Shown here: positions 9,519 through 62,277 of the stretch, one piece after another
How positions within the stretch are numbered: the first letter of the stretch is position 1
How the letters are laid out: every line of letters begins with the position of its first letter
Source of the DNA: Hyunsoonleella jejuensis
Lineage (GTDB): Bacteria > Bacteroidota > Bacteroidia > Flavobacteriales > Flavobacteriaceae
Assembly (NCBI RefSeq): GCF_900111025.1
Contig: NZ_FOFN01000001.1
Location: 1,178,001-1,242,000 of the forward strand
Length of the DNA stretch: 64,000 nt
Direction: 5' to 3'
Notes under the pieces: model-generated
Told to the model about the DNA's origin: nothing
What the model saw: the letters and a program-made list of their open reading frames with translations, nothing else
Database searches by the model: none
Position numbers and translations under genes: made by a program

Positions 9519-11786
9519 TTAATCTTCCTTCTTATCTTCTCTAGGTTTTCTATCGTCTCTGCGGTTATCACGATTGCGATTATCACGTCCACGATTATCC
9601 CTACCGCGGTTGTCGCGTCCACCACCTCGGTTGTTATCCCTTGGAGGTCTAGGCTGCCAACCTTCTGGCTTTGGTAAAATAGCTTTACGAGACACTTTCT
9701 CTTTGCGTGTTTTTGGGTCAATACCAAAATACTTCACATCAAATATGTCTCCCATGTTTACAACATCAGATACATTTTCTGTACGTTCCCAAGCTAATTC
9801 GCTTACATGCAATAATACTTCATTTCCTGGAGCATCTACATACTCTACAACAGCCCCAAAATCAAGCATTTTAATAACTTTAACTTCGTAAACGCTACCA
9901 ACTTCAGGTTTAAATAACAAAGAATCGATTTTTGCCATAACAGCATCAATACCTTTACTACCAACACCTAAAACTTCTACAATACCTTCTTCAGTAACAG
10001 GGTCCTCATTGATTACTATAGTGGTATCAGTTTCCTTTTGTAATTCTTGAATTACTTTTCCGCCAGGACCAATTAAGGCTCCAATAAATTCATTAGGAAT
10101 ACGCCTAGTTACCATAGTAGGTGCATGATCTTTCACTTCTGCATTTGGTGATGCAATAGTTTCGGTAATCTTGCCTAAAATATGTAAACGTCCTTCTCTT
10201 GCTTGTTTTAAAGCATTTACAAGAATTTCATATGATAATCCTTTCACTTTAATATCCATTTGGCAAGCCGTAATACCGTCAGCAGTACCAGTTACTTTAA
10301 AGTCCATATCTCCTAAATGATCTTCATCACCTAAAATATCAGAAAGTACGGCATATTTTCCAGAATCTACATCGGTAATTAATCCCATAGCAATACCAGA
10401 AACAGGTTTTTTAAGTTGTACACCAGCATCCATCATTGCCATTGTACCAGCACAAACCGTTGCCATAGATGACGAACCATTAGATTCTAAAATCTCTGAA
10501 ACTACTCTTACCGTATAAGGGCAATCTTCTGGCACCATTCCTTTTAAAGCACGTTGCGCTAAATTACCATGCCCAACCTCACGACGAGATGTACCACGAA
10601 TTGGTCTAGCTTCACCTGTAGAAAAAGGAGGGAAGTTATAATGTAAATAGAAACGCTCTTCACCTTCGTAAGATGGCATATCTATTTGGTTCGCCTCTCT
10701 ACTGGTTCCTAAAGTTACAGTAGCTAAAGCTTGAGTTTCCCCACGTGTAAAAATTGCAGAGCCATGTGTAGATGGCAAATAATCAACCTCACACCATATT
10801 GGTCTTATTTCATCAGTTTTTCTACCATCTAAACGTAATCCTTCATCTAAGGTTAAGTTTCTAATAGCCGATTTTTGAGCTTTCGCTACATATTTATGAA
10901 TTAATTTTCCTAATTCTTCCTGCTCTTCTTCAGAAAACGATTCAAAAACTTCTTCTTTTATGTTACTAAAAGCTTCACCACGTTCATGCTTAGCAGATCC
11001 TGCTTTTGCAATGGCATACGTTTTGTCGTAAACCATATCGTGAATTTTCTTTGCTAAATCTTCATCCTCGACTTCTGGCTCATACTCACGTACTTCTTTT
11101 TTACCAAAAGCTTCGGCTAATTTTACTTGAGCAGCACATTGCACTTTAATAGCTTCGTGCGCAAACTTAATAGCATCAGCCATTTCTTCTTCAGAAATCT
11201 CATTCATTTCACCTTCAACCATCATTACAGAATCGGCTGAAGCACCAATCATCATATCGATGTCAGACTCCAATAATTGCGCGCGTGTTGGGTTGATTAC
11301 AAATTCACCATTAATACGACCAACTCTTGCTTCAGAGATTGGGCATTCAAAAGGGAAATCAGATAATTGAATAGCTGCTGAAGCTGCTAAACCTGCCATA
11401 GCATCTGGCATCACTTCATCGTCATGAGACATTAACTGAATCATCACCTGAGTTTCAGAATGGTAATCTTTTGGGAATAACGGACGTAAAACACGGTCTA
11501 CCAAACGCATTGTTAAAACTTCGCCGTCACTTGGTCTAGCTTCTCTTTTAAAGAAACCGCCAGGGTATCTTCCTGCTGCAGCAAATTTTTCTCTGTAGTC
11601 TACCGTTAAAGGTAAAAAGTCTACATCGGCAGCGTGATAGTTGGAAACAACTGTACACAAAAGCATACATTTTCCAGATTGTACAACAACAGAGCCATGG
11701 GCCTGCTTTGCTAATTTTCCGGTTTCAATAGAAATTTCTCTACCGTCACCAAGGTCTATAACCTCTTTAAATGTTTGTGGAATCAT
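9519..11786 (-). CDS. pnp: Polyribonucleotide nucleotidyltransferase (PNPase)
   Basis: A phosphorolytic 3'-5' exoribonuclease in RNA turnover. It has two RNase PH-like domains (about residues 10-145 and 325-550) separated by a helical linker, a KH domain around [15 protein letters not shown] (575-630), and an S1 domain (640-710). The last ~45 residues are a low-complexity tail of RDNRGRDNR repeats ending in charged residues, which likely adds non-specific RNA affinity. It lies downstream of rpsO on the same strand, the classical rpsO-pnp order, separated by a rpsO terminator and a repeat element. Identification secure. Confidence 0.97.
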
Positions 11787-11953
11787 AAATTTTTTCTTGT
11801 AATTTAAGCGTAAATCGGCCTAAATCATATTAAACAATGGTCGTTGTGTTGTGTGTAGTTGTTGTGTGTGCGACTGTAAAGCCTCGACCAATGAAAAACT
11901 ATAATTAGCTTCTTCTAATGCGCGGTTTAAACTCCTACGCTCGAGTTATATTT

Positions 11954-12038
11954 GGGCGTTACCCACAAGGGGTCGGGCTTTTCGCTATATCTTTTTTGAA
12001 GAAAAATCAAAAAAGGATGCCGCTGCAATCCCTAACGC
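11954..12038 (-). repeat. Structured intergenic repeat, copy 1
   Basis: Read on the minus strand it runs GCGTTAGGGATTG, CGGCATCC, a hairpin (ATCCTTTTTTGA / TCAAAAAAGAT), GATATAGCGAAAAGCCCGAC, and GGGTAACGCCC. The outer GCGTTA and TAACGC are inverted repeats. The same ordered boxes recur near 14.64, 39.67 and 61.4 kb. It sits between rpsO and pnp. No coding potential. Confidence 0.7.
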
Positions 12039-12039
12039 A

Positions 12040-12060
12040 ACCCTTCGACAAGCTCAGGGT
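12040..12060 (+). repeat. REP-like palindrome, copy 1
   Basis: CCCTTCGACAAGCTCAGGG is an imperfect palindrome with CCCT/AGGG arms. The core CTTCGAC..GCTCAG recurs at 14660, 35182, 39742 and 61276, with a decayed copy at 33712. It adjoins structured repeat copy 1. Confidence 0.7.
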
Positions 12061-12097
12061 AAAAAGAAAAAAAGAGGCTTACATAATGCAAACCTCT
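12061..12097 (-). terminator. rpsO terminator
   Basis: Read on the minus strand, AGAGG ... CCTCT closes a hairpin that is followed by a T-rich tract (TTTTTTTCTTTTT). It lies just past the rpsO stop codon. Some readthrough into pnp would allow the usual rpsO-pnp co-transcription. Confidence 0.65.
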
Positions 12098-12107
12098 CTT
12101 ATCTTGT

Positions 12108-12377
12108 TTATTTTCTTAATCCTAATTCTTTTACTATGGCACGATATCTTAAGATATCCTTCTTAGTTAAGTAATCTAGTAAAGAGCGACGCTTACCTAC
12201 TAGTTTTACTAACGAACGCTCAGTATTGTAATCTTTACGATTCTTTTTTAAGTGTTCTGTTAAGTGATTAATTCTGTGCGTAAACAACGCAATTTGAGCT
12301 TCTGCAGTACCAGTATCGTTCTTTCCTTTACCGTGTTTTGCGAAAATCTCTTCTTTTACTTCTTTTGTTAAATACAT
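12108..12377 (-). CDS. rpsO: 30S ribosomal protein S15
   Basis: 89 residues, the family's usual length. It contains the S15 signature (GTAEAQIALFTHRINHLTEHLKKN... then RSLVKLVGKRRSLLDYL). S15 binds the central domain of 16S rRNA early in 30S assembly. A CAAATATA (reverse of TATATTTG) about 55 bp upstream fits the -7 promoter element. Identification secure. Confidence 0.98.
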   Translation of the reverse strand: MYLTKEVKEEIFAKHGKGKNDTGTAEAQIALFTHRINHLTEHLKKNRKDYNTERSLVKLVGKRRSLLDYLTKKDILRYRAIVKELGLRK

Positions 12378-12557
12378 GCTAATATTATTGTAAATGATTG
12401 TTATGTACTATGAAAGTCTCTCTTTCAGGCGGCAAATATAGCATCTTTTTTGTATTTAAATGTTTTTTTGTGTAACTTTTCGTTGATTTTAAAGCGTTAC
12501 TTCCCTAAGGTAACTTCTTATTGGCTCTCAAAACAATAACTTGAAGCACTTACATAC

Positions 12558-14580: not shown

Positions 14581-14639
14581 ACTATTAAGGGTTTTTAGTT
14601 GGTTTGTTTACAGACTAAAATCTAATTTGGCGATATCTC

Positions 14640-14773
14640 GCGTTAAGGATTGAGGCAAACTTCGACTGCGCTCAGCACAGGTTTGTTAAAGCGCTCTCGA
14701 TTTTTTTATCGAGAAGCGACTACCGAAAGCCTGACGACAAAATTAAACCTTTTTTTAATTTTGGGGTAACGCC
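14640..14773 (+). repeat. Structured intergenic repeat, copy 2
   Basis: Begins GCGTTAAGGATTGAGGCA, contains an inner hairpin CTCGATTTTTTTATCGAG, the box ACCGAAAGCCTGACGAC, a second hairpin AAATTAAA...TTTAATTT, and ends GGGGTAACGCC. A REP-like palindrome (cttcgactgcgctcag, 14660-14675) is nested in its left part. It separates fba from accD. A diverged member of the same family as copies near 11.95 and 39.67 kb. Confidence 0.65.
14660..14675 (+). repeat. REP-like palindrome, copy 2 (nested)
   Basis: cttcgactgcgctcag, the TGC-variant of the core also seen at 61276. It lies inside structured repeat copy 2, so it either inserted there or is a mobile sub-module of the larger repeat. Confidence 0.6.
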
Positions 14774-14831
14774 TTAAGAGTTTTATTGGGTTTTAACTTG
14801 TAATAACCTGTATATTAACAATTTAATCTAA

Positions 14832-37902: not shown

Positions 37903-38628
37903 ATGTGTACAGTAACCATAGCACCAATTAATGAAACCTGTTTTGTTTTAACTTCGAATAGAGACGAAGCACCGAACAGAGCCTCTGCAGCTCCTGAGTT
38001 TTATAATATTAACAATACGCAAGTTTTGTTTCCAGAGGATAAATTGTCTGGTGGCACTTGGATTGGAATAAGTGAAAAAAAACGAGTGATTTGCGTTTTG
38101 AATGGTGGATTTGAAATTCATGAGCGTAAATCATCATATCGATTAAGTAGAGGTGTAGTGGCAAAACATTTTATGGTTGCTGATGCCATTGTTGAAACCA
38201 TTGAGTCTTATAATTTTGACGCCATTGAACCGTTTACTATGGTGATTGCAGATTGGAGTACTACGTTGCAATTTTTTGAATTGGTTTGGGACGGTAATCG
38301 AAAGCACTTTACAGAATTGCCTTTAGAACCAAGAATTTGGTCTTCTTCAACATTGTACGATTCAGCGATGAGAATTAAACGTAAACAATGGTTTGAAGAT
38401 TTTAAATCTGAACACCAGCTCGATAGAGAATCATTGATGACATTTCATAAAACAGCAGGAGCAGGCAATGTAAATTATGGCGCAATAATGGATAGAGGCT
38501 TTGTGAAAACCACAAGCATTACTCAAATTCACAAAAAAACTGAGGTTACAGAGATGCACTATGAAAGTCTTTTAAGCAACCGTCAAACATCTAAAATCTT
38601 CAAAATTCCACAACCCGTTAATGGCTAA
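37903..38628 (+). CDS. NRDE-family protein (TANGO2-like)
   Basis: The frame is open 33 codons further up, but the family starts at Met-Cys, so MCTVTIAPINETCFVLTSNRDE is chosen. Cys2 and the NRDE motif at about 18-23 are the signature of this Ntn-hydrolase-like family, whose eukaryotic member is TANGO2. The biochemical role is unsettled; heme handling has been proposed for some members. 241 residues. Overlaps the next gene by 8 bp, so the pair is co-translated. Confidence 0.88.
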   Translation: MCTVTIAPINETCFVLTSNRDEAPNRASAAPEFYNINNTQVLFPEDKLSGGTWIGISEKKRVICVLNGGFEIHERKSSYRLSRGVVAKHFMVADAIVETIESYNFDAIEPFTMVIADWSTTLQFFELVWDGNRKHFTELPLEPRIWSSSTLYDSAMRIKRKQWFEDFKSEHQLDRESLMTFHKTAGAGNVNYGAIMDRGFVKTTSITQIHKKTEVTEMHYESLLSNRQTSKIFKIPQPVNG

Positions 38629-39613
38629 CACAGGTATTATTTTAACCATGGCATATCCTGAAACCATTGTTATGGTTGCCGATGAATGGTATTCGCCTTT
38701 TTTAAGGTATTTGGGTGTTGGTAAGAAAAACTATTTACGAGCGGGTCATGCGGCGTTGGTGTTGATAGATAAATCCACAGGAATTTTGGAGTACCACGAT
38801 TTTGGGCGCTATATTACGCCAGAACCAAATGGAAGGGTTCGAGGAAAAGACACGGATAATGAGTTAGATTTTCCGTTAGTAGCCAAAATTGAAAATAAAA
38901 CTATTACCAATCTTGATGAAATTTTAGAGTTTTTAGGCACAAACCCCAAACTAACCCATGGTGAAGGAAAATTGGTAGCTTCGGTTTGTAGCGCTGTAGA
39001 TTATAAAAAAGCACGAACTCATATCACCGAAATGCAAAACAGGCATTTTATTCGCTATGCGGCGTTTATTAAGGATGCTTGCAACTGTGCGCGTTTTGTA
39101 ACCGATAGTTTGATTGCTTCTGTTACTGATGCGAAAATTAGGAAGGACCTGATACAATCTAAATGGTTTACACCAAGTACTGTTGGCAATGTGTTACTTG
39201 CTGATACTGAAAATTATGTATATGAAGTCTCTGAAACGGGGCAAACTTCAGAATTTAAAGGTTCTCAAAAAAGTGAAAATGTACGTTACTTTTTAGATAA
39301 GTTAAATGGGCATGAGGTAAATTTTAAAGGAACTTTAGAGCCAAAACCTAACGCTACTATTGTAGAGCATGCCCAATGGTTATCGGGTATTGCAGCAGGC
39401 GCTTGGTTTGAACTACATAAAAATGGAAGTATTGAGATTTATAGGTTTAGACGCATTTCCCCGTATGGCAATGTAGATTGTGATGCCCTTTTTAAGGTAG
39501 AGGATACCTCCTTTAACTATGATTTGTCTTTTGAATTTGTGCATTACTCCAATTGCAAATTTTTTCATGTGAGGCAGGAGCGCAGGGTTTTTAGGTTTGA
39601 GAGGGTTAGTTAA
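38621..39613 (+). CDS. Uncharacterised protein with permuted papain-like motifs
   Basis: 330 residues, no signal peptide. RAGHAALVLID (H43) and CNCARFVTDSL (C156) follow the His-then-Cys order of circularly permuted papain-fold proteins of the LRAT / NlpC-P60 superfamily (compare the NCxxFV motif of LRAT). It may therefore be a cysteine hydrolase or acyltransferase. The C-terminal half (HAQWLSGIAAGAWFEL...YRFRRISPYGNVDCDALF) is unlike anything I can name; a flavobacterial DUF (DUF6695-like) is likely. Translationally coupled to the NRDE gene. Confidence 0.65.
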   Translation: MANTGIILTMAYPETIVMVADEWYSPFLRYLGVGKKNYLRAGHAALVLIDKSTGILEYHDFGRYITPEPNGRVRGKDTDNELDFPLVAKIENKTITNLDEILEFLGTNPKLTHGEGKLVASVCSAVDYKKARTHITEMQNRHFIRYAAFIKDACNCARFVTDSLIASVTDAKIRKDLIQSKWFTPSTVGNVLLADTENYVYEVSETGQTSEFKGSQKSENVRYFLDKLNGHEVNFKGTLEPKPNATIVEHAQWLSGIAAGAWFELHKNGSIEIYRFRRISPYGNVDCDALFKVEDTSFNYDLSFEFVHYSNCKFFHVRQERRVFRFERVS

Positions 39614-39671
39614 TTGTTTTTATGCCTTCCTTACAATGATAGTTTATTCATTAATTTTCTAAGGTTTCTTC

Positions 39672-39772
39672 TGCGTTAGGGATTGAACGGCATGTTTGAG
39701 CTCCTCGAAGAGAGCGAGTAGTGAAAGCCCGACCACTTGCACTGAGCTTGTCGAAGTGTTGTGGTAACGCCC
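39672..39772 (+). repeat. Structured intergenic repeat, copy 3
   Basis: GCGTTAGGGATTG, CGGCATG, a small hairpin (CTCCTCGAAGAGAGCGAG), GTGAAAGCCCGACC, a nested REP-like palindrome within CCACTT...AAGTG..GTGG arms, and GGTAACGCCC. Box order matches copy 1. It fills most of the gap between two convergent genes and its end touches the apaG stop codon. Confidence 0.7.
39742..39756 (-). repeat. REP-like palindrome, copy 4 (nested)
   Basis: CTGAGCTTGTCGAAG, the reverse complement of the core seen at 12043 and 35182. Flanking ACT/AAGT arms extend the stem. Nested in structured repeat copy 3. Confidence 0.6.
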
Positions 39773-40158
39773 TAATTAATAGCGAAAGGCGCACTCAACT
39801 TAAAGGTTGGAATAGCGACTTGAAATTTTTTGGTGGTGGTGAAATTTACCATATTGTAATGCCCTTGCATCGCACCAAAAGGTGAGGTGAGTAAGCATCC
39901 TGAAGTGTAGGTATGCGATTCCCCAGGTTTTAAAACTGGTTTTTTACCAACAACGCCTTCACCTGTTACGGTCTCTAGGTTATTTAAAGCGTCTAGAATT
40001 TCCCAATGGCGTGCGTAGAGCTGTACAGAGTCTTTACTTTGATTTTCTATGGTAATGGTATAACCAAAGGCGTACTGGATTTTATAATTTTTATAAAATG
40101 TGCCCTCGAAAGTAGTTTCGACCGAAATTTTTATGCCTTTTGTTACCTGTTGAACCAT
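39772..40158 (-). CDS. apaG: ApaG domain protein
   Basis: 128 residues with the fibronectin-III-like ApaG fold. Motifs: GIKISVETTFEG, YAFGYTITIENQSKDSVQLYARHW, GEGVVGKKPVLKPGESHTYTSG, and GAMQGHYNM. Often called a Co2+/Mg2+ efflux factor, though the molecular role is not established. It lies downstream of the T9SS plug gene on the same strand (84-bp gap). Confidence 0.93.
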   Translation of the reverse strand: MVQQVTKGIKISVETTFEGTFYKNYKIQYAFGYTITIENQSKDSVQLYARHWEILDALNNLETVTGEGVVGKKPVLKPGESHTYTSGCLLTSPFGAMQGHYNMVNFTTTKKFQVAIPTFKLSAPFAIN

Positions 40159-52207: not shown

Positions 52208-53191
52208 ATGAAACGAATTTTATTGGTATTAATAGTTATTGGATTTATTTCTTGTAAACAGAATAATACCCGTGTCATAAATAATACTGTAGTACAAGGT
52301 ACAGTGTTTGGAACATACTATAGGGTAACTTACTACTCTAATAAGGATTATCAAAAGGAGTTTGATAGTTTGTTCAATATTATAAACAATTCTTTATCTA
52401 CTTATTTAGAAAACTCAGATATTTCTAAAGTAAATAGAAATGAACTTACCGAAATAGATAATCATTTTAAAAATGTTTTTCAAGCTTCAAAAGTAATTTA
52501 TCACGAAACCAATGGTGCTTTTGATCCTACCATAGGCAATGTAGTGAACGCCTGGAATTTTGGCGCTGAACAAAACAAGTTTTTAACCGATAGTATTACA
52601 ATTGATAGCTTAATGCAATTTGTAGGATTTAATAAAATAAACCTATCAAACAATTCTATTATAAAACCCAAAACGTCATACTTAGAGTTTAACGCTATTG
52701 CTAAAGGATATGCTGTAGACGTTATTTCACAATTTTTAAGTGATAAACGTATAGATAATCACCTAGTAGATATAGGTGGCGAACTTATGGCTAAGGGCAT
52801 TAATGCTCAAAAGAATAAGGAATGGCTAGTTGGCATTGAAAACCCCAATTTTGATGGTACACAATCTACTAATAAAGTAGTAAAGCTTCAGGATGAAGCG
52901 ATGGCCACTTCTGGTACGTACAGAAAATTTAAAATTGATGAAAATGGCAATAGATATGCGCATATTATAGATACTGAAAGTGGGTATCCAAGTAAAACCA
53001 ATTTATTGAGCATTTCGGTGATTGCTAGGGATTGTATGACAGCTGATGCCTATGCTACTGCCTTTAAAACCATGGGCATAGAAAAAGTAAAAACTTTTTT
53101 AAGAGCGCATCCAGAGCTTAAAGTATTTTTGATTTTTGAAAATGAAAATAATGGATTGGAGACTTTAGCTTTAAACGGATTTCCAGAATAA
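52208..53191 (+). CDS. apbE: FAD:protein FMN transferase ApbE
   Basis: Exported lipoprotein (lipobox FISCK) of 327 residues that transfers FMN from FAD onto Thr of target proteins in the periplasm. Motifs: VFGTYYRVTYYS, NAIAKGYAVD, LVDIGGELMAKG, TSGTYRKF, IDTESGYPSKTN and CMTADAYATAFKTMG. NqrB and NqrC in this window carry the expected target threonines. Directly abuts the 125-residue protein gene. Confidence 0.95.
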   Translation: MKRILLVLIVIGFISCKQNNTRVINNTVVQGTVFGTYYRVTYYSNKDYQKEFDSLFNIINNSLSTYLENSDISKVNRNELTEIDNHFKNVFQASKVIYHETNGAFDPTIGNVVNAWNFGAEQNKFLTDSITIDSLMQFVGFNKINLSNNSIIKPKTSYLEFNAIAKGYAVDVISQFLSDKRIDNHLVDIGGELMAKGINAQKNKEWLVGIENPNFDGTQSTNKVVKLQDEAMATSGTYRKFKIDENGNRYAHIIDTESGYPSKTNLLSISVIARDCMTADAYATAFKTMGIEKVKTFLRAHPELKVFLIFENENNGLETLALNGFPE

Positions 53192-61347: not shown

Positions 61348-61405
61348 AATGTTGTTTTACAAAGAGTACATTAGCTATGGTATGCCGCGGTGCTGGCAGG
61401 TACGT

Positions 61406-61562
61406 GCGGGAGCGATAGAAACGGCATCCTTTTTGCGAAACTGTAAATGCAAAAACCTCTGTTTTTTGAAGCTATTAATTTGAAAGGAAAAAACTTTAAG
61501 GTGCTTACAGGGCGCCTCGCAAAAAGATATAGTGGATAGCGCGGTTTTTATAAAAACCCGCC
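61406..61562 (+). repeat. Structured intergenic repeat, copy 4 (long subtype)
   Basis: GCGGGAGCGATAG, CGGCATCC, then CTTTTTGCGA (61429-61438) pairing perfectly with TCGCAAAAAG (61517-61526) around a 78-base insert, then ATATAGTGGATAGC and a terminator-like GCGG...CCGC hairpin. CGGCATCCTTTTT and AAAAAGATATAG are shared with copy 1. It lies just downstream of pepE and probably ends that transcript. Confidence 0.65.
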
Positions 61563-61569
61563 ATAAAAG

Positions 61570-62277
61570 TTATTTTAAATTAGTTAAGGTTGAACCGCTT
61601 TCAACTTCGTAAGGTGGTTTGTTATATTCAAAAATTCTCGCTGAAAGCGGGCCCTGTAGCGTAATATTATTATCTTCTACTGAAAGCCAACTGCCTTCGC
61701 GTAAGCCTACAACTGGTTGTGAGTTGTAGCAATGAAATTCCTTAATTCGGGTTTCGCGAGTTTCTCCCATATGTGTGCTATTGGTGTCGGGATCTAAATA
61801 GTGCGGATTTATATTAAAAGGCACTAAGCCTAAGGCATTGAAACTTGGGGGGTAAACAATAGGCATATCATTGGTAGTTTTTATGGTAAGGCCGCAAATA
61901 TTGCTACCGGCACTTGTACCTAAATATGGTGTGCCATTGTTAACTGCATTTTTAAGTGGCGCTATTAAATTGTTTTTGTGTAATTGGTTGGCTAGAACAA
62001 AGGTGTTGCCACCGCCCGTAAATATACCTTCGGCATTTTCAATCGCCTCAGAGGGGTTTTTATACGTATGCAGTCCTACTACATTTATGCCAATTTTTGC
62101 AAATGCTTTTTTCGCAACTTCGGTATAATCATCATGAGATATTCCACTAGGTCTCGCGTAAGGCACAAAAACTATGGTTTTTACCTCTTTAAAAAAAACA
62201 GAGAGTTCTTCTATAATATAGTCTAAATAGCTGCTGCCGTGAACAGTAGAGGTGCTGGCAATAATTATATGTTTCAT
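61570..62277 (-). CDS. pepE: Dipeptidase E (peptidase S51)
   Basis: Hydrolyses Asp-X dipeptides, cytosolic serine peptidase related to class I glutamine amidotransferases. 235 residues. The nucleophile elbow YLGTSAGSNICG, the GIFTGGGNTFVL segment and INPHYLDPDTNSTHMGETRETRI match the family. Monocistronic, transcribed toward structured repeat copy 4. Confidence 0.93.
   Translation of the reverse strand: MKHIIIASTSTVHGSSYLDYIIEELSVFFKEVKTIVFVPYARPSGISHDDYTEVAKKAFAKIGINVVGLHTYKNPSEAIENAEGIFTGGGNTFVLANQLHKNNLIAPLKNAVNNGTPYLGTSAGSNICGLTIKTTNDMPIVYPPSFNALGLVPFNINPHYLDPDTNSTHMGETRETRIKEFHCYNSQPVVGLREGSWLSVEDNNITLQGPLSARIFEYNKPPYEVESGSTLTNLK

Follow-up and report, generated by a model that had tools for sequence, protein, structure and literature searches.

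The closest described relative of the repeat analysed here is Flavo-1 (Rfam RF01705), which Weinberg et al. 2010 judged, in the accessible text of their paper, to be 'probably' an RNA and 'probably not' cis-regulatory (PMC2864571). Flavo-1 has since been placed in a table of abundant bacterial sRNA families in a 2022 review, with no function given in its available text (PMC9029176), nor is a function stated in the accessible portions of the literature found under the name or the accession. The element described below resembles the published motif in its arm 1, the internal loops of that arm, sequence and Bacteroidetes distribution (PMC2864571, accessible text), and is unlike the RF01705 model in adding an outer stem, a second arm and arm classes B, C and D, which fall outside or below the model. 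Literature searches, with most subscription papers and supplements outside their scope, found no report of the outer stem, the second arm or the change of arm.

The second family of comparable systems comprises the REP/BIME repeats and REPINs. REPs, given as 20-40 bp long, are described in the accessible text of two papers, one covering their foot tags and RAYTs (PMC3733652), the other E. coli REPs close to stop codons (PMC12306157). As described there, these repeats are, like Flavo-1, of high copy number, intergenic, able to fold back, often near stop codons and patchily distributed among species. In contrast, Flavo-1 forms a larger three-way junction, shows no conserved tag at its foot, is not linked to RAYTs and varies in arm class at fixed loci. 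CGTC repeats, which are also reported in Bacteroidetes and said to have no dedicated transposase, differ from Flavo-1, on the accessible description, in being small palindromes by the REP definition of the same source (PMC3733652).

Here we analysed Flavo-1 copies in a window, by which we mean the whole stretch of 64,000 nucleotides of Hyunsoonleella jejuensis (NZ_FOFN01000001.1, positions 1,178,001 to 1,242,000), and in the genomes of related bacteria. On balance, we believe that Flavo-1 copies are probably dispersed, strand-specific foldback DNA elements working like REP/BIME repeats. An initial annotation of the window had left open whether RNA or DNA structure is selected, and the evidence now leans to DNA.

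Copies in the window and their anatomy

An Rfam scan of the window identified the copy at 11.95 kb as Flavo-1 (RF01705; 11967-12041 (-), 57.5 bits), so that the initial annotation, which gave the family no accepted name, was mistaken on this point. The scan also returned 61404-61550 (+) at 42.6 bits, barely above the gathering score of the RF01705 covariance model (42 bits), and returned nothing for the copies at 39.67 and 14.64 kb even at E <= 1; judged by gathering score, the copies at 11.95 and 61.4 kb are thus members of Flavo-1 and those at 14.64 and 39.67 kb are not. R1, an extended covariance model larger than Rfam's, matches all four. The copies at 39.67 and 14.64 kb are therefore Flavo-1 relatives missed by Rfam, and the copy at 61.4 kb is a fourth, absent from a list whose three entries all match R1. 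A hand-made detector, which found one of the four window copies, gave way to the covariance model. The features are as follows.

11952-12040 (-): full element, arm class A; R1 91.9 bits, to be read in the light of its place in the R1 training set; Rfam 57.5 bits; three-way-junction fold
12033-12038 (-): 5' strand of the outer stem, GCGTTA, pairing with 11956-11961; covarying helix 1 and fold
11975-12032 (-): arm 1, class A, the region covered by the Rfam model; Rfam, covariation and fold
11962-11972 (-): arm 2, the short variable hairpin CCCCTTGTGGG; fold
11956-11961 (-): 3' strand of the outer stem, TAACGC; covariation and fold
14638-14776 (+): diverged copy with an insert, in the fba-accD gap; R1 24.4 bits, E 0.001; junction fold with DNA energies
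14660-14675 (+): CTTCGACTGCGCTCAG stretch nested in arm 1 of the 14.64 kb copy; sequence
39671-39774 (+): class D copy between convergent genes; R1 47.0 bits and class script
61404-61565 (+): class A copy with an enlarged loop and outer stem GCGGG/CCCGC; R1 52.7 bits, Rfam 42.6 bits

The coordinates and intergenic location first given for three of the copies are correct, and Pfam confirms their gene neighbours (PNPase, ribosomal S15, class II F_bP_aldolase, carboxyl transferase and ApaG). The 11952-12040 copy lies between rpsO and pnp in the direction of both genes, the 14.64 kb copy runs opposite to both fba and accD, the 3' end of the 39.67 kb copy overlaps the apaG stop codon on the other strand (ORF 39772-40158 (-), Pfam ApaG), and the 61.4 kb copy is found downstream of a tRNA with its 3' end 4 nt from an opposite-strand stop (ORF 61570-62277 (-)). 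The 'same ordered boxes' that had been ascribed to three copies are complete only at 11.95 kb. At 39.67 kb GCGTTAGGGATTG, CGGCAT, AAAGCCCGACC and GGTAACGCCC are present, CATCC and GATATAG are absent, and CACTGAGCTTGTCGAAGTG lies within arm 2; at 14.64 kb GCGTTAAGGATTG, AAAGCCTGAC and GGTAACGCC are present, together with the CTTCGACTGCGCTCAG stretch inside an arm that is D-like by eye and for which the class script returned '?'. The 21-base box of the initial annotation occurs once in the window at up to three mismatches, compared with no occurrence in 100 shuffles.

Conserved sequence extends past the Rfam model in the 30 loci of the window's genome and the 40 of three other genera that were read. 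The element is a three-way junction composed of an outer stem (GCGTTA/TAACGC), arm 1 (the Rfam arm) and arm 2 (a second variable hairpin), that is, a Flavo-1 member with an extension consisting of the outer stem, the second arm and arm classes B, C and D. The outer stem has six pairs, arm 1 carries purine-rich internal loops and, in our reading, a bulged C in classes A and C, and arm 2 varies in sequence and length. At rpsO-pnp, most congeners carrying the element have the same short arm 2 as the 11.95 kb copy. Three features escaped the initial annotation: that the outer stem is a stem, that there is a second arm, and that the arm class changes.

Covariation was assessed in 24 full copies out of 33 picked by length and a recognisable 3' end; those left out were L009 and eight copies of one genome, whose GCTT-type outer stem aligns one base off. 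With a structure of 26 pairs written by hand, 90.1% of cells were paired compared with 76.3% after shuffling, and 15 of the 26 pairs changed on both sides, with few one-sided changes, a result reached in none of 500 shuffles; the number of further pair types was less striking, being matched in 29 of 500. Slid versions of the structure gave at most 50.0% pairing. The covariation covers the outer stem, which falls outside Rfam's model, and an unconstrained fold of the alignment gave the same three-way shape. Outside the 24 copies, the outer stem is swapped with pairing kept (by eye: GGCTT/AAGC, GCATTA/AATGC, GCGCAA/TTGCGC and GCGGG/CCCGC). Folded as RNA, the 11.95 kb copy has the three-way junction as its minimum-energy structure, and its complement folds differently. 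Compared with shuffles, the fold energy is not unusual at 11.95 kb (z -1.17) or at 39.67 kb (z -0.63), where the RNA fold is a different one, and is low at 14.64 kb (z -3.73). One genome (G138) has mostly a short form without arm 2 (TAGCCC...GGGAAATAGCTCC), which also occurs among copies of the window's genome (L001, L002).

The initial annotation had proposed that a covariance model be built from the copies and run against genomes, and had stated that the family would fall if there were neither covariation nor enrichment between genes. This exercise yielded both covariation and genome-wide intergenic copies, which back a dispersed, structured, intergenic family in which pairing is selected. 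Other repeats accompany the element: CTTCGACAAGCTCAG-type stretches lie in or beside three window copies (14660-14675, 39738-39760 and 12041-12060), and other palindromes (CCTGCCGGCAGG, CCTGCAAGG...CCTTGTAGG) are nested as hairpins within arms in relatives.

Abundance, placement and turnover

The window's genome holds at least 79 copies by R1 at E <= 0.01 (150 of 711 candidates scored), compared with 14 RF01705 matches above the Rfam cut-off. Across 12 congeners, the window's genome included, R1 copies number 13-126 per genome. Within a family-wide draw, in which per-genome counts are lower bounds with up to 29 candidates scored each, RF01705 is matched in 96 of 149 genomes at E <= 0.001. Among the matches listed for a strict pattern (at least 80 loci), the named genomes are Flavobacteriaceae, Chryseobacterium and relatives, unnamed Bacteroidetes MAGs and one Mucilaginibacter MAG. 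The strict Flavo-1 core was also matched by one contig of a viral collection (L356, 1837-1895 (-)). The most alike pairs of copies within a genome are 0.82-0.92 identical and have unrelated flanks (three genomes; 20, 17 and 29 copies), and hence these three samples give no indication of a very recent burst.

Placement was examined at 60 loci out of 176 R1 hits in three genomes, 59 of them with neighbours on both sides. Only one of the 60 overlaps an ORF of at least 120 aa by more than 45 nt, which, with the copy number of at least 79, agrees with the high intergenic abundance of REPs. Relative to the element, both neighbours are opposite at 24 of the 59 loci, both in the same direction at 16, convergent at 10 and divergent at 9. 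There is a polarity towards stop codons: in 25 of 34 cases no more than 15 nt separate the 3' end of the element from a stop codon on the opposite strand, whereas a same-strand stop is found within 30 nt of the 5' end in 6 of 26 (p 2e-4). The remaining 9 of the 34 exceed this distance, and many copies face start codons. In the window, the polarity holds at 39.67 and 61.4 kb but not at 14.64 kb, where 114 nt separate the 3' end from the fba stop, or at 11.95 kb, where the 3' end faces a start codon. The sole terminator-like hairpin with a T run in 11786-12400 lies at 12070-12100 (-), between rpsO and the element, and we therefore rejected a role of the rpsO-pnp copy as an intrinsic terminator.

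Whole copies are present in some relatives and absent from others at fixed sites. The rpsO-pnp gap carries the element in 8 of 12 congeners, all eight with an R1 match; it is absent from G002 and G005 as judged by the model and from G001 and G009 as judged by eye, and G002 has a short junction without it. Between sufD and sufS, by-eye reading of the 30 genomes with loci, out of 60, gave six class A copies, one D-like arm, two decayed copies and 21 genomes with none, four of these 21 (G024, G032, G039 and G049) having a gap that the script left undelimited. All six class A copies run opposite to the operon. R1 matches the copy in G000 and six of the eight other positives, the exceptions being G047 and G025, and the element is also found at this site in G003, G136 and G081. 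One genome (G045) has 14 nt here, and another (G062) has those 14 nt plus 78 nt; by eye, this one filled site can be read as flanked by the 4-nt direct repeat ATAG. Together, the patterns at sufD-sufS and rpsO-pnp indicate that some positions are common to several genera and that whole copies are gained or lost. A recent gain in the fba-accD gap was considered and dropped, as relatives that lack a model match still show, by eye, recognisable parts of the 3' half; decay is thus a likelier explanation of the 14.64 kb copy than recent arrival.

Arm class at fixed loci

By motif script, the best 30 copies of the window's genome comprise 11 of class C, 9 of class A, 9 of class B and 1 of class A', class D copies scoring lower and so falling outside the best 30. 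Related species keep the flanks and the second arm but differ in the class of the main arm. Between metH and metF, 10 of the 12 congeners have an R1 match, which in G009 lies at the far end of a gap of 1.5 kb; the other two, G008 and G001, have ~1.07 kb of other DNA with no R1 match. In the nine genomes classed there, G009 not among them, arm 1 is of class A in G000, G010, G007 and G006 (by eye), D in G003, G011 and G002, and B in G004 and G005. Between G007 and G011 the 5' flank is 83% alike, the arm 24% and the 3' side 87%. For G011 and G004 the arm is 46% and the 3' side 99% alike, and the 5' flank is also unlike (45%), so that the difference reaches upstream of the arm in this pair. Arms of the same class can differ as well (G000 and G007, both A, 28%), because the outer hairpin varies.

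Similar comparisons can be made at rpsO-pnp. Here, G010 (A) and G004 (D) are 92% alike in the 5' flank, 34% in the arm and 79% in the second arm and 3' flank, with values of 92, 46 and 76% for G003 (A) and G004 (D) and of 92, 34 and 94% for G003 and G010, both A; G011, outside the parsed comparison, is class D by eye. The short second arm of G004, whose main arm is D, is the same as in G000, G010, G007 and G008, whose main arm is A. The tRNA-side locus near 61.4 kb has class A in G000, B in G004 and C in G005, and in G003 is a degraded remnant without a model match. Between tpiA and prmA, among congeners with closely spaced flanks, six loci in five genomes are B and that of G006 is a decayed D (by eye). 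Two tpiA-prmA loci (L481 and L489) were seen in G007, an assembly 87% complete; the L481 gap is nearly identical to the G001 gap (L480), suggesting that the G007 assembly includes foreign contigs.

Given that the same second arm and flanks are kept, independent insertion at a hot spot is not what would be expected, and copying of the arm fits best. Judging from these alignments, the arm would have been swapped by copying from another dispersed copy, with breakpoints within the conserved boxes. A more ambitious version of this idea, which we offer as speculation and think unlikely as it stands, is that the outer stem, the GGGATTG and AAAGCCCGACC boxes and the second arm of Flavo-1 make up a fixed frame that would accept at least four interchangeable classes of hairpin cassette, moved between copies by a dedicated single-strand DNA mechanism, such that the system would spread arms and not whole elements.

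Working form of the element

The two strands of the element differ. We compared 17 core pairs in 130 distinct copies out of 142 R1 matches, a sample that includes model training copies and orthologous copies. The strand matched by the Rfam model (Rfam strand) has 37 G-T against 14 A-C (p 0.002), and the 40 copies opposite to both neighbours have 11 against 2 (p 0.02), with p values that are too small since the copies are related and not independent. Where both neighbours are opposite, their mRNA would hold the complement, and a structure acting in mRNA would be expected to show an A-C excess. Calculated with DNA energies, 100 of 126 copies, and 33 of the 40 opposite to both neighbours, are more stable as the Rfam strand than as its complement, and the outer stem closes in 70 Rfam strands compared with 44 complements (n=126). 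RNA energies also favour the Rfam strand (87 of 126) and close the outer stem equally often in each (48 and 48), so that folding alone cannot separate RNA from DNA. Since the Rfam strand folds better even where the neighbouring mRNA carries the complement, we favour a foldback DNA element over an sRNA, and infer that single-stranded DNA of the Rfam strand is a likelier working form than a transcript.

Based on these observations, we propose the following model. One defined strand, once single-stranded, would fold into the three-way junction of outer stem, arm 1 and arm 2. Copies occupy intergenic positions, in many cases with the 3' end next to an opposite-strand stop codon, and resemble REP/BIME repeats in being numerous, partly old and gained or lost at individual loci. 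They are probably recognised or copied as single-stranded DNA, the DNA strand and not a transcript presumably being the working form. Finally, arms may change by template switching or gene conversion between dispersed copies at the conserved boxes.

The alternative with most in its favour, though we consider it fairly unlikely, is that Flavo-1 acts in trans as a small RNA, or is a structured part of mRNA leaders or tails, as filed by Rfam, which gives the type of RF01705 as 'Gene; sRNA'. The covariation and the G-T excess fit an RNA of the Rfam strand too, and the sufD-sufS copies persist across several genera. However, at sufD-sufS and in 40 of the 130 copies it is the complement that the mRNA holds, yet the Rfam strand folds better. 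Furthermore, the flavobacterial promoter motif TAnnTTTG is not enriched within 70 nt upstream of the element (10 of 130 copies, 8.4 after shuffling) or in the other direction (4 compared with 6.8), and a promoter borne by the element was accordingly rejected. Published F. psychrophilum data cut both ways: in the accessible text, several 5' transcript regions coincide with Flavo-1 hits, but hits occur both sense and antisense to transcripts without distinction, and many show no transcription, which is inconsistent with one transcript form of Flavo-1 (PMC9723704). The filing of Flavo-1 as an sRNA is not supported here.

We regard it as improbable that Flavo-1 is a classical miniature transposon, the whole element being moved in trans by a transposase of the IS200/IS605, RAYT or another family. 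Presence or absence at fixed sites (rpsO-pnp, sufD-sufS), uneven copy number, the within-genome identity of copies with unrelated flanks and the possible ATAG repeat at the filled sufD-sufS site would all suit such an origin, as would the finding that a match to Y1 transposases (PF01797) tracks Flavo-1 presence (48/59 compared with 48/90, p 0.0005, kinship and genome size ignored). However, among the 33 Flavo-1-rich genomes, defined by ten or more hits, 16 have a Y1 match and 17 have none, and thus Y1 is not needed for high copy number, though its presence correlates. RAYTs (NF047646 above its cut-off) are found in 28 of 149 genomes and in 6 of the 33 rich ones, Flavo-1 being present in 22 of the 28 compared with 74 of the other 121 (p 0.12), and R1 at E <= 0.1 matches nothing in the 30 best NF047646 loci and their flanks of up to 1.5 kb. 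Linkage and co-occurrence both led us to reject RAYT as a mobiliser, and no mobiliser was found among the RAYT and Y1 transposases of the 149 genomes. Copies at some loci are common to several genera, and arm changes within a kept frame would not be predicted from whole-element jumps.

The foot of the element was compared with that of REPs in 59 copies of three genomes taken together. The outer stem begins with GCG and its 3' side is CGCCCAAA; upstream of it all columns from -40 to -2 stay at or below 0.5 bits, and the REP foot tag GTAG/CGTC is thus missing. As both the RAYT and the tag comparisons failed, we do not file Flavo-1 as a REP. A lagging-strand excess, expected of single-strand elements, is here marginal (98 of 170, p 0.055; 37/61, 21/36 and 40/73 in three genomes, by a hand tally that leaves out six hits falling on small contigs in the window's genome), and we do not use it as support.

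Least probable of all, in our view, is that the element acts chiefly on the gene whose stop codon it adjoins, by tuning its translation or the decay of its mRNA, a role that an earlier study proposed for 260 of 496 E. coli REPs, as reported in the accessible text of PMC12306157: the polarity towards opposite-strand stops would agree with it, but the mRNA there holds the complement, which is the less stable of the two strands in 33 of the 40 copies opposite to both neighbours, and the 3' ends beyond 15 nt and the copies facing start codons do not suit it.

If Flavo-1 copies are indeed DNA foldbacks, existing sRNA annotations mislead, and flavobacteria own a REP-like system without the usual transposase. 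Furthermore, the change of arm within a fixed frame would offer a direct route to studying the copying of hairpin DNA between sites of a bacterial genome.

Several other features of the window were recorded in passing. A weak Rfam match to mir-965 at 52697-52770 (+) is surely due to chance (28.8 bits, cut-off 43). Beside the 39.67 kb copy, 38621-39613 (+) encodes a TseH-like domain (PF25218, 222 bits) and a DUF6695 C-terminal domain by Pfam. Before rpsO, at 12375-12440 (-), lies an S15-Flavobacteria ribosomal leader (RF03161, 71.7 bits).
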